A stretch of 64,000 nt of DNA from an uncultured Opitutaceae bacterium. GTDB lineage: Bacteria > Verrucomicrobiota > Verrucomicrobiia > Opitutales > Opitutaceae. Both the position numbers and the translations under genes were made by a program. The notes beneath the pieces are model-generated. The model was given only the letters and a program-made list of their open reading frames with translations, ran no database searches and had not been told where the DNA came from. Location: contig CAIYUN010000065.1 of the NCBI GenBank assembly GCA_903929355.1, positions 1 to 64,000 of the forward strand, written 5' to 3'. Shown here piece after piece: positions 23,269 to 29,031 of this stretch. Position 1 is the stretch's first letter. Each line of letters starts with the position of its first letter.

Positions 23269-24333
23269 TCAAACCGGGCTGGCAAACCGGGGGGTGAGCG
23301 CGGTGTGGATCTCGCGCACCAGCGCCTCGGTCGTCGGCCAGTCGATGCAGGCGTCGGTGATGCTCACGCCATAGCGGAGTTTTTCGCGCGGCTGCGGGAA
23401 GGGCTGGCTGCCGGCGTGGAGATTGCTCTCGAGCATCGCCCCCATGATCGAGGGGTCGCCGGCGGCAATCTGGGCGAGCAGACCGCGCATCACCTCGGGC
23501 TGGCGCTCGGGTTGCTTGGCGGAGTTGCCGTGGGAGCAATCCACGAGAATGGCGCGCGGCAGTCCGGCCTTGGCCAGAAGCGCCCCGGTCTGGGCCAGGT
23601 GCGCGGGCGAGCAGTTCGCGCCGGCCGAGCCGCCGCGGAGGACGACATGGCCGTCGGGGTTGCCCTGGGTGACAATGGCGGCGGCGGCACCATCGAGGTC
23701 GATGCCGAGGAAAGTCTGCGGCTGCGCGGCGGCGAGGATGGCGTTGACCGCGGTCTGGACGGAGCCGTCGGTGCCGTTCTTGAAGCCCACCGGCATGGAG
23801 AGGCCCGACGCCATCTGGCGGTGCGTCTGCGACTCCACGGTGCGTGCGCCGATGGCCGACCAGCAGATGAGGTCGGCGATGTATTGCGGGGTGATGGGGT
23901 CGAGAAACTCCGTGGCCGTCGGCAGCCCGAGGTCGAGCACGTCCCGCAAAAACGCCCGGGCGAGCCGCAGTCCGGTGGCGATGTCGTGCGTGCCGTCGAG
24001 GTGCGGATCCATGATGAGGCCCTTCCATCCGACCGTGGTCCGGGGTTTCTCAAAATAGACCCGCATCACGATCAGCACGCGGTCGGCGACGTCGTGGGCC
24101 AGGGCGGCCAGCCGCTGCGCATATTCGCGGCCGGCGGCCACATCATGGATGGAGCATGGGCCGACGATCAGCAGCAGCCGGCGATCGCCGGTGAACATGA
24201 GCCGGTGAATCTCCGCGCGGGCGCGGGCGATAAAATCCGCCTGCGCCTCGGAGGTGGGCGCCCCGGCGAGGAGCTGCCGGGGTGACGGCAGGGCGCGCGT
24301 CTCGACGACATGGAGGTCGGAGGTTTTCTGCAT
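23269..24333 (-). CDS. aroG: 3-deoxy-7-phosphoheptulonate (DAHP) synthase, class I alpha
   Basis: Condenses phosphoenolpyruvate and erythrose 4-phosphate, the first step of aromatic amino acid synthesis. The 354-residue protein is of the AroF/G/H type: [70 protein letters not shown], and the metal-ligand His/Glu region [12 protein letters not shown]. The paralogue (AroF, G or H) cannot be told, nor which amino acid inhibits it. A promoter-like sequence and a two-hairpin structured element lie upstream at 24402-24536, so expression may be controlled by early termination. Confidence 0.94.
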
Positions 24334-24401
24334 AAACCGGCGAGACTGTCAGGTTTGATCGCTGAGGGGCAAGCCTCGGTGCACGCCGACCCTTGGCATT
24401 T

Positions 24402-24502
24402 GGGCAAAAAGTTGCCCGGTCGCCTACCCCTAAGCGACCGGGCATTTGCTTTCTTAGTTACCCCAAAACTCCCGCTAAGCGGGAGAAGCGAGGAAATTTG
24501 AT
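24402..24502 (-). ncRNA. Structured leader or small RNA, copy A (upstream of aroG)
   Basis: Read on the minus strand, in order: CATCA close to the expected transcript start; hairpin CTCCCGC-TTA-GCGGGAG (24485-24469); the single-stranded TTTTGGGGTAACTAAG; then a perfect 10-bp stem GCCCGGTCGC/GCGACCGGGC with loop TTAGGGGTAG (24443-24414), followed by AACTTTTT. The last stem plus T-run looks like an intrinsic terminator. Its 3' arm also overlaps a second possible hairpin, GGGCAA/TTGCCC (24417-24402). A related element is at 27941-28055, with different stem bases but the same loop and linker words. I do not recognise a named RNA family. Confidence 0.65.
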
Positions 24503-24508
24503 GGCTAA

Positions 24509-24536
24509 GAACTATCCTTGTTCCTAACTTCGTCAA
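24509..24536 (-). promoter_or_regulatory. Promoter-like sequence ahead of RNA element A
   Basis: On the minus strand TTGACG (five of six -35 bases) and TAGTTC (weak -10) are 16 bp apart and stand just upstream of the structured element. In copy B a better promoter sits at the same relative place, which is the main support for this one. Confidence 0.35.
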
Positions 24537-24580: not shown

Positions 24581-25525
24581 ATGAAACCTAAGTTTTTCCC
24601 GCTCCCCCAGGGCCCCTGGTGGCATGGCTGGGCTCCGGCCGCCGTGCTGAAGGTCGTCGGCGAGGATGCGCTGCGTTTCCTCCAAGGCCAGTTTTCCCAA
24701 GACCTGTTGGTCCCGGCCGGGCCAGATCGGGTGGCTTATGGCTTGTGGCTCAACCACAAAGGTCGGGTTCTGGCGGATAGTTTTGCCCTGGTCCATGGGC
24801 CGACCGAGGTGTGGCTGGTCAGTTATTTCTCGGTGGGGGCCGAAATCAAGGATCACTTGGAAAAGCATGTTATCGCCGACGACGTGACGATCGAGGATTT
24901 GACGGCGGATTGGAGCGGTCTCACCCTCGGCGGCCCGGTGAGAATGTCAGGGATGGAACCGAATGGTGAGGAAAGACTTGATGCGCCTGTGCCACCCGCA
25001 CAATTTGGCCGAAGAGGCCCGGGTTGGATGTTCCGCGGGCGCCGGGACGCGGGAGAATGCTGGGAATGGCTGGCCCCTCGCGGAACCTTGCCGCCCATCC
25101 AGGACGAACGGGTTGAGCTATCATCCAAAACCTTGGAATCCATACGGATGGAGGCCGGAGTCCCTGCCGTACCCGTTGACCTTGGCCCGGGTGACCTGCC
25201 GCACGAGGGCGGGCTCGACCAAGTGGCGGTTTCTTATAGCAAGGGATGTTATCTTGGCCAGGAGGTCATGGCCCGGCTGCGCACGGGGAAGATCCGACGC
25301 CGTCTGTTCCGCGTGGCGGGTGCCGGTCTGCCGCCGGAGGGGCGCCCCACCCCGCTCTTTCAAGCCGGTCGGCGGTGCGGGGAGCTGCGGTCGGCGGTGC
25401 CCGATGCGACCGGCGGATGGCTGGGCCTGGCCATGCTCACCCTGCTGGGCTTGGACGGGACCGCACCGCTGACGGCCATCCCCGAGCCCGACGCGCCGGC
25501 GATACGTTTGCTTGACGTGCCGTGA
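24581..25525 (+). CDS. ygfZ: YgfZ/GcvT-like folate-binding protein
   Basis: A folate-dependent protein that supports assembly or repair of certain Fe-S enzymes, including the MiaB tRNA-modifying enzyme in E. coli. The 314-residue protein has the GcvT-like start LKVVGEDALRFLQGQFSQDL, a middle GLWLNHKGRVLADSFAL, and the YgfZ signature K-G-C-Y-x-G-Q-E in YSKGCYLGQEVMARLRTG, whose Cys is the hallmark residue. Cytoplasmic. Divergent from aroG across the structured element; galK follows after 25 bp, so the two may be co-transcribed. Confidence 0.9.
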   Translation: MKPKFFPLPQGPWWHGWAPAAVLKVVGEDALRFLQGQFSQDLLVPAGPDRVAYGLWLNHKGRVLADSFALVHGPTEVWLVSYFSVGAEIKDHLEKHVIADDVTIEDLTADWSGLTLGGPVRMSGMEPNGEERLDAPVPPAQFGRRGPGWMFRGRRDAGECWEWLAPRGTLPPIQDERVELSSKTLESIRMEAGVPAVPVDLGPGDLPHEGGLDQVAVSYSKGCYLGQEVMARLRTGKIRRRLFRVAGAGLPPEGRPTPLFQAGRRCGELRSAVPDATGGWLGLAMLTLLGLDGTAPLTAIPEPDAPAIRLLDVP

Positions 25526-26800: not shown

Positions 26801-26819
26801 AAAACCGTAGCGCGGCTAC
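26801..26819 (-). terminator. Possible terminator of the prepilin peptidase gene
   Basis: On the minus strand GTAGC-CGC-GCTAC overlaps the stop codon and is followed by GGTTTTCCC. Short stem and short T-run; weak support. The 122-bp gap to galK on the left holds nothing else I can name. Confidence 0.35.
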
Positions 26820-27739
26820 ATCGGGCCGCGCAGCAGCACGGTGATCTGCTCCACCTTCCAGGCGGTCCAGTGGTGGAACCAGAGGAAATGCGCGAGGCCG
26901 GCGATGGCGAGCATCGGGCCAAAGGGCACCTGCGCGCCAAAGCCGAGCTCCGCCGGCTGGCCCTCGGCGGTTTCAGTGGGCGGGGCGACGGCGGTTTTTT
27001 TCCCGGAAATCTTCTGGAGCAGGAACGCCAGGGCCACCCAGACCGTGCCGACGACCGCGCCGCCGAAGACGGCGAACACCGCACCCTGCCACCCGGTGAA
27101 GGCGCCGATCGCTCCGACCAGCTTCACATCGCCAAAACCCATCGCCTCCTTTTTCAGCGCGGCCTCGCCGAGCACCGCGATCCAGACCACCAGGCCGGCA
27201 CCGATCAGCATGCCCAGGACCGCGTCGCCGCCGGAGCGAACCATGGCAAAAAACGGCAGGCCGGAGGCCTCGCCGTGCAGGGCCGGCACGAAGAGGGACA
27301 GCGCGACCCCGGCCAGCCCGAGCCCGATGGTGAAACGGTCGGGGATGATGAAGTGGTCAAGATCAATGAAGGTCGCCGCCACCAGCGCGCTGACAAGCAC
27401 CCAGCCGCACACCGCCACGGACGGGGGGTAAAGCCACCAGCAGGCGAGGAACAGCAGGCCGGTGAGCAGCTCGACAAAAACATACCGGAACGAGTAGGGC
27501 CGGCCGCAGCAACGGGCCCGGCCGCGGAGGATGAACCAGCTCAGGATCGGGAGGTTGTCGAACCACGCGATGGGCTTCCCGCAGGCGCAACGGGAGCCGG
27601 GTGTGACAATGGATTTTTCCGCCGGGATGCGGTAGATGCAGACATTGAGAAAGCTGCCGATAATCGCGCCAAGCAGGAACGCGAGAGTGGTAAAAAACCA
27701 TGGCAGGTCGGCATTGGCTTCGGCGAGGCGGGTGAACAT
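26816..27739 (-). CDS. Prepilin peptidase / leader peptidase (A24 family)
   Basis: A polytopic membrane protease that cuts and N-methylates type IV pilin-like precursors. The 307-residue protein has the family start GAIIGSFLNVCIYRIP, a cytoplasmic zinc-type cysteine set (CACGKPIAWFDNLPILSW and RCCGRPYSFRY), and the two catalytic aspartates in FIDLDHFIIPD and GFGDVKLVGAIGA. About eight membrane segments. No pilin, PilB or PilC gene is adjacent, so its substrates are encoded elsewhere. Transcription may start at a promoter about 330 bp upstream and pass through RNA element B. Confidence 0.93.
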   Translation of the reverse strand: MFTRLAEANADLPWFFTTLAFLLGAIIGSFLNVCIYRIPAEKSIVTPGSRCACGKPIAWFDNLPILSWFILRGRARCCGRPYSFRYVFVELLTGLLFLACWWLYPPSVAVCGWVLVSALVAATFIDLDHFIIPDRFTIGLGLAGVALSLFVPALHGEASGLPFFAMVRSGGDAVLGMLIGAGLVVWIAVLGEAALKKEAMGFGDVKLVGAIGAFTGWQGAVFAVFGGAVVGTVWVALAFLLQKISGKKTAVAPPTETAEGQPAELGFGAQVPFGPMLAIAGLAHFLWFHHWTAWKVEQITVLLRGPM

Positions 27740-27893: not shown

Positions 27894-27940
27894 CGCGGCC
27901 CGAAAGCGGGGAGGCACGCCACGGGGGGACTTGCGGCGGA

Positions 27941-28057
27941 AAAAGAAAGGGCCCGCCGATTACCCCTAAACGGCGGGCCCACTATTTTCTTGTCCGGCGT
28001 CGCCGCCGGGCATCCATGTTACCCCAAGATCTCCCCCATCGCTGGTGGAGAACCCTG
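27941..28057 (-). ncRNA. Structured leader or small RNA, copy B (upstream of prepilin peptidase)
   Basis: Read on the minus strand: TGCATCAGGGTTCTCC; a hairpin CTCCACCA-GCGA-TGGGGGAG with a GNRA loop (28050-28031); TTGGGGTAAC; an extra hairpin CCGGCG-GCGA-CGCCGG, again GNRA; AAGAAAATAGT; then a perfect 10-bp stem GGGCCCGCCG/CGGCGGGCCC with TTTAGGGGTAAT in the loop (27980-27949) and TTTCTTTTT after it. The last part is a typical intrinsic terminator. The words CATCA, TTGGGGTAAC, AAGAAA and TTAGGGGTA are shared with copy A in the same order, while the stems differ by compensating changes. The target gene would be the prepilin peptidase 209 bp further on. Confidence 0.65.
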
Positions 28058-28062
28058 ATGCA

Positions 28063-28091
28063 GTTATTCCTTAGAGCAGCACGCGTGCCAA
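28063..28091 (-). promoter_or_regulatory. Sigma70-type promoter of RNA element B
   Basis: On the minus strand TTGGCA (five of six) and AATAAC (four of six) are separated by 17 bp. The predicted start falls at the 5' edge of the conserved element. The rest of 27740-28245 holds a REP-like palindrome and no gene. Confidence 0.5.
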
Positions 28092-28245
28092 CGAGCGCGC
28101 AGTTTGGCGGGCTTGGGAAAATATTTTCAGGTCGGTTTTACCACCTCCATCCGCCCCGCCAAAGACGCCCGCTTTCGTCAGAGGTTGGCCTGACCAACCG
28201 GAAAAGACGGTTGTGGGTCGGGAGGCCCCACCCCACCCTGCCGCC

Positions 28246-29031
28246 ATGCCACTGCCGCCCATGCTCCTGGAGGACGACACCCTCGTCGCATTCGACAAGC
28301 CCGCCGGCCTGCTCGTTGCGCCCGACCGTTGGGACAAGGCGCGCACCAACCTCATGCAGCTCGTCCATGATCAGCTTGGCCGGGACATTGCCACGGTCCA
28401 CCGGCTCGACGCGGCCACCAGCGGGGTGGTGTTGTGCGCGAAGACGAAGCTGGCGCTGGATTTTCTCAGTGGCCAGTTCCAGAGCAAGACGGCCGCGCTG
28501 GTCTGCCATGCGCTGGTGGCCGTCCTGCCGCCGGAAGAGGCGATGAAAGTGGTCGCGCCGGTGCGCACCGAGGGCGGCGCGCTGCCGGAAACCTTTGCGG
28601 TGGAGCTGGCGTTGGGCGAGGACGAGCGGGAACCGGGGCGGATGCGGGTGTTCCGGGGCCGTGACGGCAAGCCCGCCGCGACGGAGTTCCGCGTGTTGGA
28701 GCGATTCGGGCGCTTCGCTTATGTCGAATGCCGGCCGCTCACCGGCCGCCGGCACCAAGTGCGGCTGCACCTCGCCGCCATCGGCGCGCCGGTACTCAAC
28801 GACCCGCTTTACGGGGTGCCCGAGATCGAGCTGCGATTGTCGGACCTGAAGCCCCGCTACAAAGGCCGCGCGGACGAGAAGCCGCTGATCCGCCAGCTGG
28901 CCCTGCACGCGAGCACGCTGACGGTGCGGCATCCGACCACGGGCGAGCCGGTGACCATCACCTCCCCCCTGCCGAATGAGTTTGAGGTCGCGCTGAAATA
29001 CCTGCGGAAGTTCGGCAGTGGCCGGAGGTAG
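28246..29031 (+). CDS. RluA-family pseudouridine synthase
   Basis: Isomerises uridine to pseudouridine in rRNA or tRNA. The protein of about 261 residues starts with the LLEDDTLVAFDKPAGLLVAP segment and has the catalytic Asp in VHRLDAATSGVVL. Later come RLLTGRRHQVRLHL-type sequence (CRPLTGRRHQVRLHLAAIG) and LNDPLYG, all as in RluA/RluC/RluD. There is no S4 domain, so it is closer to the RluA/TruC branch. Which site it modifies is unknown. Several in-frame starts exist; 28246 is chosen because it puts the family start about eight residues in. Confidence 0.88.
   Translation: MPLPPMLLEDDTLVAFDKPAGLLVAPDRWDKARTNLMQLVHDQLGRDIATVHRLDAATSGVVLCAKTKLALDFLSGQFQSKTAALVCHALVAVLPPEEAMKVVAPVRTEGGALPETFAVELALGEDEREPGRMRVFRGRDGKPAATEFRVLERFGRFAYVECRPLTGRRHQVRLHLAAIGAPVLNDPLYGVPEIELRLSDLKPRYKGRADEKPLIRQLALHASTLTVRHPTTGEPVTITSPLPNEFEVALKYLRKFGSGRR

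Follow-up and report, generated by a model that had tools for sequence, protein, structure and literature searches.

A new, apparently unnamed family of predicted multicopy small-RNA genes across the Opitutales

Several described systems bear on the locus considered here. The Qrr small RNAs of Vibrio are paralogous, are read from sigma-54 promoters and work with Hfq; RybB and MicA, envelope-stress small RNAs under sigma-E, use Hfq as well; CsrB sequesters CsrA from mRNAs; and in RepG of Helicobacter a C/U-rich terminator loop meets a G-tract. The nearest working parallel is FopS, a set of paralogous small RNAs of Bacteroides, for which 14 copies in one strain (9/14 intergenic), bands of ~65 and 70 nt, canonical sigma-ABfr promoters, and pairing with susC mRNAs through a 5′ seed are reported (PMC11697453).

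The window, by which we mean the whole stretch of 64,000 nucleotides analysed from an uncultured Opitutaceae bacterium, contains two members of what is, judging from its sequence features, a new and apparently unnamed multicopy small-RNA gene family distributed over an order of bacteria from soil and water; the name Opitutales (phylum Verrucomicrobiota) used for this order is our reading of the titles of named matches. The family resembles Qrr in comprising predicted paralogous small RNAs with sigma-54 promoter motifs, but these motifs mark one branch here (10/77 copies) and no Hfq was found. It resembles RybB and MicA in that some of its members would stand under an ECF sigma factor; those two belong to other families, however, whereas the ECF branch here is a paralogue of the sigma-70 and sigma-54 branches. 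A short motif repeated in loops recalls CsrB/RsmY, although the motif is GGGG rather than GGA and CsrA is missing in 69/84 carriers, and the terminator loop as a candidate recognition site recalls RepG, the loop here being G-rich instead. We have not seen a doubled GGGGUA recognition unit described for any small RNA. With FopS the family shares multicopy paralogous small RNAs, a common exposed segment and a lineage with RRM-1 proteins (PMC11697453), and several paralogues per genome with their own likely promoters are found here too, to judge from motifs in 59/77 copies. Compared by description, the Opitutales RNA differs from FopS in its copy number (1 to ~7), in its three kinds of promoter and in carrying GGGGUA at two sites, of which one is in the terminator loop.

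An earlier note on this DNA, made from the letters of the window, had placed two copies of a two-hairpin element between divergent gene pairs, and both places hold it on the minus strand (Table 1). The series of words by which the note defined it stands for the most part: hairpin 1, UUGGGGUAAC, an AAGAAA-type linker, a GC stem with UUAGGGGUA in its loop and a U-run are present in both copies, while the CATCA word placed at the head of the series is frequent on the 5′ side (19/77 copies vs 1/77 in an upstream control stretch) and not defining. The limits given for copy A, 24402-24536, need to be narrowed, the RNA probably running from ~24502 to 24406 and positions 24503-24536 being promoter, not RNA. 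Read on the minus strand, copy A consists of a 17-nt hairpin followed by UUUUGGGGUAAC, UAAGAAAGCAAA, the stem with the UUAGGGGUA loop and the U-run; in its minimum-energy fold the GGGG of GGGGUAAC is weakly paired with CCUC. Copy B has the same order of parts and represents a long subtype with an additional hairpin in the linker, between GGGGUAACAUGG and AGAAAA. By eye, this extra hairpin recurs with differing stem letters in 7/7 aligned long copies, and further long copies are also among the matches found by the covariance model. Distant copies at L255 and L257 have, by eye, a different extra hairpin-like stretch in the A-rich linker, which seems to be unrelated in origin to copy B's long subtype.

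Table 1. Coordinates in the window of the two RNA copies, their predicted parts and the flanking genes
Feature	Position	Strand	Basis or remark
Copy A, predicted small RNA, ~97 nt	24406..24502	-	ends predicted from promoter and terminator; fold z -6.3
Copy A, -35-like TTGACG	24531..24536	-	read from sequence; TTGAC class
Copy A, -10-like TAGTTC, weak	24509..24514	-	TATCTC or TATCAC in several relatives
Copy A, hairpin 1, CTCCCGC UUA GCGGGAG	24469..24485	-	fold; 5/5 modelled pairs two-sided across 74 copies
Copy A, GGGGUAAC, candidate recognition motif 1	24457..24464	-	first GGGGUA in 40/46 distinct distant copies
Copy A, A-rich linker UAAGAAAGCAAA	24445..24456	-	alignment A1
Copy A, terminator hairpin	24413..24444	-	13 modelled pairs, two-sided changes in 10
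Copy A, terminator-loop GGGG within UUAGGGGUA, candidate recognition motif 2	24427..24430	-	3′-end GGGGUA in 46/46 distant copies
Copy A, U-run, predicted 3′ end	24406..24410	-	sequence
aroG, DAHP synthase, downstream of copy A	23269..24333	-	PF00793 2.4e-79; own promoter-like CTTGC at -40
ygfZ/GCV_T-like gene, divergent from copy A	24581..25525	+	PF01571 6.1e-13
Copy B, predicted small RNA, long subtype, ~125 nt	27940..28064	-	predicted ends; fold z -4.4
Copy B, sigma-54-type promoter motif, TGGCACGCGTGCTGC	28076..28090	-	TGGCA-N7-TGC; rpoN domain in same genome
Copy B, GGGGUAAC	28018..28025	-	sequence and pattern
Copy B, extra hairpin of long subtype, approximate limits	27992..28011	-	fold of copy B
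Copy B, terminator hairpin, GGGG loop 27963-27966	27949..27980	-	sequence and fold
Copy B, U-run, predicted 3′ end	27940..27944	-	sequence
Prepilin peptidase, downstream of copy B	26816..27739	-	PF06750 and PF01478
Pseudouridine synthase, divergent from copy B	28213..29031	+	PF00849 3.5e-27

Copies A and B are each more stable than 200/200 dinucleotide shuffles (z in Table 1), and a form of the pattern whose gap of 15-45 accommodates copy A had 0 matches in 100 shuffles of the window. Both 10-bp terminator stems pair in full, as had been claimed; that they differ at most positions is true end to end (7/10 of the 5′ arm) but not in the TTAGGGGTA register, where only 4/10 differ. Divergence of the stems is overstated by these two copies alone, and a larger alignment settles the point. 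In 74 distinct complete copies the RNAalifold structure has 18 pairs, of which 15 show two-sided changes, bearing out the view that the structure is kept and the stem sequence is not. Pairing amounts to 97.5% of cells, with 164 two-sided cells, a level reached in 0/500 shuffles on any measure, and it falls to 32-52% when the partners are slid by 1-3 columns; the covariation counts are inflated by kinship of the sequences, the effect size and the slid controls still being clear. All 74 copies end in a GC stem and then a U-rich stretch. The terminator loop is likewise GGGG in 74/74, the set having been selected by a pattern that imposes the invariance of GGGGTA and TTAGGGGTA, and the free test of these parts is provided by the model search, which yielded 46 distinct copies in other families of the order once one own-family copy and two duplicates were dropped. 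Among these, GGGGUA lies close to the 3′ end in 46, UAGGGGUA is present in 41 and the first GGGGUA in 40, its exact form being missing in 6/46. At L245 and L248 the fold places the first GGGGUA within a hairpin loop as well, so that both units are looped; the persistence of GGGGUA while its setting changes, there as elsewhere, weighs for a short recognition unit.

The own genome has three places with the pattern GGGGTA-N22-52-TTAGGGGTA, the third of which (copy C, locus L001) is G000:C36:37529-37626; a tRNA gene occupies positions 28-99 of that locus, ~1.4 kb from the copy. The pattern is present in 56/61 genomes of the family (46/49 by genus) as against 5/61 for a reversed control pattern. 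The covariance-model search that had been suggested as a check did uncover more copies in relatives: model R1, which gives copy A 104.4 bits and copy B 62.5 bits (both are in its training set and match by construction), has matches in 84/132 genomes of the order (50/69 by genus) and none in the other 48/132. In a phylum sample, searched with strict filters through which weak relatives may be lost, 42/288 genomes were positive, all 42 of them within the same order. In a named collection, pattern matches are mostly chance among the 80 listed of 118: eight of the 80 pass above 60 bits, the best of the other 72 reaches 18.9 bits, and the eight passing titles among the matches listed are all Verrucomicrobi- or Opitut-, including Verrucomicrobia bacterium IMCC26134. 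For closer comparison, 78 copies were assembled from 72 loci, 32 returned by the search and 40 hand-picked for second copies and long forms, and owing to the latter the class proportions given below describe the selected set. Tandem copies ~200-410 bases apart are seen at L022, L027, L043, L061, L068, L254 and L257, with three in a row at L061 and L257.

As the earlier note had suspected, the element matches no family in Rfam 15, which at the gathering cut-off has 0 matches in the window, and a search of 18 copy-bearing loci against Rfam returned the neighbouring tRNA only. ArcZ, P11 and other weak matches from a permissive Rfam search scored far under their gathering scores and on both strands, and were taken as chance. 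In the small-RNA literature on Opitutaceae, Opitutales and Verrucomicrobia, the family was not found by title or abstract start among the open-licence papers listed.

Promoter motifs were scanned in the 77 copies with enough upstream DNA, where they stand at near-fixed distance. TTGAC occurs at -110 to -45 of GGGGTA in 35/77 copies (7% of shuffles) and in the stricter form TTGAC-N17-TA in 21/77 (0.35%); the sigma-54 motif TGGCA-N7-TGC is found in 10/77 (0.06%), including 7/7 pattern-found long copies; the ECF-type [TG]GAA[AT]C-N16-CGTC is found in 11/77 (0.01%) and a GGAAC form in 5/77 (0.03%). These shuffle rates are flattering, since the motifs were picked after viewing the sequences and orthologous copies are non-independent. 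With class labels that follow what we take to be the sigma-54 and ECF consensus forms, the copies fall by motif into three promoter classes, sigma-70-like, sigma-54 and ECF-type, TTGAC and the sigma-54 motif occurring together in two copies. Within the own genome, a sigma-70-like motif precedes copy A and the sigma-54 motif copy B, the third copy having both; the sigma-54 DNA-binding domain (rpoN) is found in this genome and in 118/132 genomes of the order.

The promoter motifs, the terminator, the tandem copies and the synteny together make it very probable that the copies are independently transcribed small-RNA genes, in line with the small-RNA alternative of the earlier note; tandem copies and differing neighbours fit separate genes. 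Each gene would stand on its own, closed by an intrinsic terminator and mostly preceded by a recognisable promoter, and the family would be one of small regulatory RNA genes of ~95-125 nt, in our sample confined to Opitutales. A small coding RNA was considered because of an AUGG after GGGGUAAC in the long copies, and was rejected as the frame is not kept among 7 long copies inspected by eye.

Two rather different accounts would take the element away from regulation in trans, and gene context bears on both. Context was determined by tblastn with the proteins of the window, over loci extending ~1.5 kb to each side. Copy A, with a terminator at its end, precedes aroG on the same strand, and a downstream aroG in that orientation is found in 22/72 loci, which suits the riboswitch-type attenuator of aroG that the earlier note had put forward. 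Against this, no aroG was found by tblastn within the ~1.5 kb flanks in 50/72 loci, those of copies B and C included. Where the start of aroG could be placed (15 of 26 loci tried, one spurious value and ten not found being dropped), the distance between loop and ATG varies between 57 and 267 nt, a CTTGC element stands at -39/-40 from the ATG in 9/15 loci, and some -35-like match lies at -52 to -27 in 13/15, one of them inside the terminator itself. With CTTGC at about -40, the aroG mRNA may start a few bases before its ATG and be near leaderless, and the promoter-like element of its own together with the variable gap makes a separate start of aroG most likely, so that the RNA would not be its leader. 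A terminator stem that is 99.5% paired over 74 copies also argues against attenuation, and we regard a cis-acting attenuator or riboswitch of aroG as very improbable; the regulatory targets of the RNA are probably genes other than the adjoining one. In the window the promoter-like CTTGC region of aroG is at 24333-24375 (minus strand); the 15 loci over which the element was counted are class-A loci. An equally slight chance attaches to a dispersed repeat, that is, a mobile element or terminator repeat without regulatory role. Such a repeat would agree with 1 to ~7 copies per genome, tandem ones included, and with the 18/77 copies that have none of the promoter motifs, but it would hardly be expected to show stems that covary around loops that stay fixed, or a promoter motif in 59/77 copies. 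In 22/72 loci a divergent ygfZ/GCV_T-like gene is situated upstream, and the place between it and aroG is kept in the 17/72 loci that have both genes, which is also against a mobile repeat, as is the lack of a match of copy A to phage and plasmid collections at E 0.01. Open-frame clustering revealed another divergent gene common to 12/72 loci, mostly of the ECF class, and a PIN-domain gene downstream in 11 of 72.

For the function of these genes, our preferred reading, to which we assign a probability of roughly 0.55, is that they form a trans-acting small-RNA family whose GGGGUA segments base-pair with translation starts that are C-rich and poor in Shine-Dalgarno signals, blocking them. The family, its structure and covariation, the terminator, the distribution, the promoter motifs and the lack of a detectable Hfq are read from sequence; transcription, action in trans, pairing with mRNA, repression and the link to RRM proteins are inferred. 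In genome G051, GGAG precedes 23/511 of the predicted starts, which lack a Shine-Dalgarno signal, and G makes up 12-16% of positions -13 to -4 in its 341 ATG genes, while its 16S 3′ end is intact (GGATCACCTCCTTTCT); a search of the own genome with one 16S-end pattern gave no match. Over the first 800 kb of G051:C1, upstream G is depleted, with C at 48% at -1 and A at 36% at -3. IMCC26134 is listed among Shine-Dalgarno-scarce organisms in PMC10783764. The idea of an anti-Shine-Dalgarno mimic was set aside by inspection, GGGGU pairing with the 16S tail over only about five bases, a wobble among them.

Targets were scanned in 2.0 Mb of G051, at the predicted starts of 1,365 genes from an ad hoc gene finder. 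With the linker seed, 6 translation starts reach -20 kcal/mol or better. That level is attained on average 1.5 times with 60 dinucleotide-shuffled seeds, once on the antisense strand and 0.5 times in random genome windows; shuffles reached the hybrid of rank 1 in 8/60, those of ranks 3 and 5 in 0/60, that of rank 8 in 1/60 and that of rank 10 in 22/60. The terminator-loop seed gave no excess of strong hybrids at these starts, and TACCCC at starts numbers 13 vs 14.5 expected from a dinucleotide model of starts, being 3.6 times its genome-wide rate. Two candidate conserved targets were rejected. For a flavoprotein (PF00667), 17 of 30 fetched loci were inspected and the site exists in G051 alone, without being kept even inside its genus; for holA (PF06144) it exists in G051, G002 and G436, all of the same genus, and is absent in 16 others of the 19 inspected of 30 fetched, and since a different recurring string lies upstream of holA in other genera, the holA match may descend from it and be fortuitous. 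The linker after GGGGUAAC changes beyond close relatives, which rules out extended pairing as what is conserved. The evidence for mRNA pairing is thin, and we treat it as a lead rather than a demonstration.

Which protein might assist the RNA is best considered together with the other reading that takes the GGGGUA segments as recognition sites, namely a decoy whose two GGGGUA sites bind an RNA-binding protein, for instance an RRM protein, and titrate it from mRNAs. Hfq (PF17209) was detected in 0/132 genomes of the order, with 5/14 control genomes positive, and a highly diverged Hfq could escape this search; if none is there, any helper would be another protein, and RRM proteins are the leading candidate. 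RRM_1 has matches in 104/132 genomes of the order, with two matches in the own genome (G000:C58:67041-67250 and G000:C8:15386-15595, candidate partner proteins of the RNA), and an RRM is found in 77/84 RNA-bearing vs 27/48 other genomes (Fisher p 4e-6, uncorrected for ancestry and genome size), an association that is confounded by ancestry and small genomes. The frequency of RRM proteins in this order would suit a decoy, as would the weakly supported mRNA pairing and a short motif that occurs twice and is kept in varied surroundings, near the 3′ end of 46/46 distinct distant copies and with both units in hairpin loops at L245 and L248. It would have to function with just two sites per RNA, however, seven RNA-bearing genomes are without a detected RRM, and no GGGGUA-binding protein is known to us. 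A decoy for CsrA in particular was rejected: the loop is GGGG, not GGA, and CsrA, found in 27/132 genomes of the order, occurs in only 15/84 RNA-bearing ones and is absent from 69/84. On balance we find a protein decoy doubtful, though well within consideration, and keep to trans-acting pairing as the favoured reading.

Since the paralogues have in common the predicted sites of recognition, namely GGGGUAAC and UUAGGGGUA of the terminator loop, but differ in promoter motifs, several signals would raise the same effector RNA. One may go further and imagine an order-wide hub without Hfq, in which housekeeping, sigma-54 and ECF-stress paralogues present the doubled GGGGUA either to an RRM protein or, through it, to C-rich starts in these Shine-Dalgarno-poor bacteria; this wider scenario is speculative, and we consider it unlikely as it stands.

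Were it true, the hub would be a convergent counterpart of the RbpB-FopS network of Bacteroides. The family itself raises the testable question of how small RNAs act where no Hfq is detected and Shine-Dalgarno signals are scarce, as in Bacteroides. Nature would here offer a clean example of signals being integrated at the level of RNA, with one RNA distributed among three kinds of promoter. A review (PMC9029176) counts only 8 distinct annotated small RNAs in the Planctomycetes-Verrucomicrobia-Chlamydiae group as a whole. Verrucomicrobiota would now gain a conserved, readily recognised family of predicted small RNAs, with a covariance model and clear predictions.
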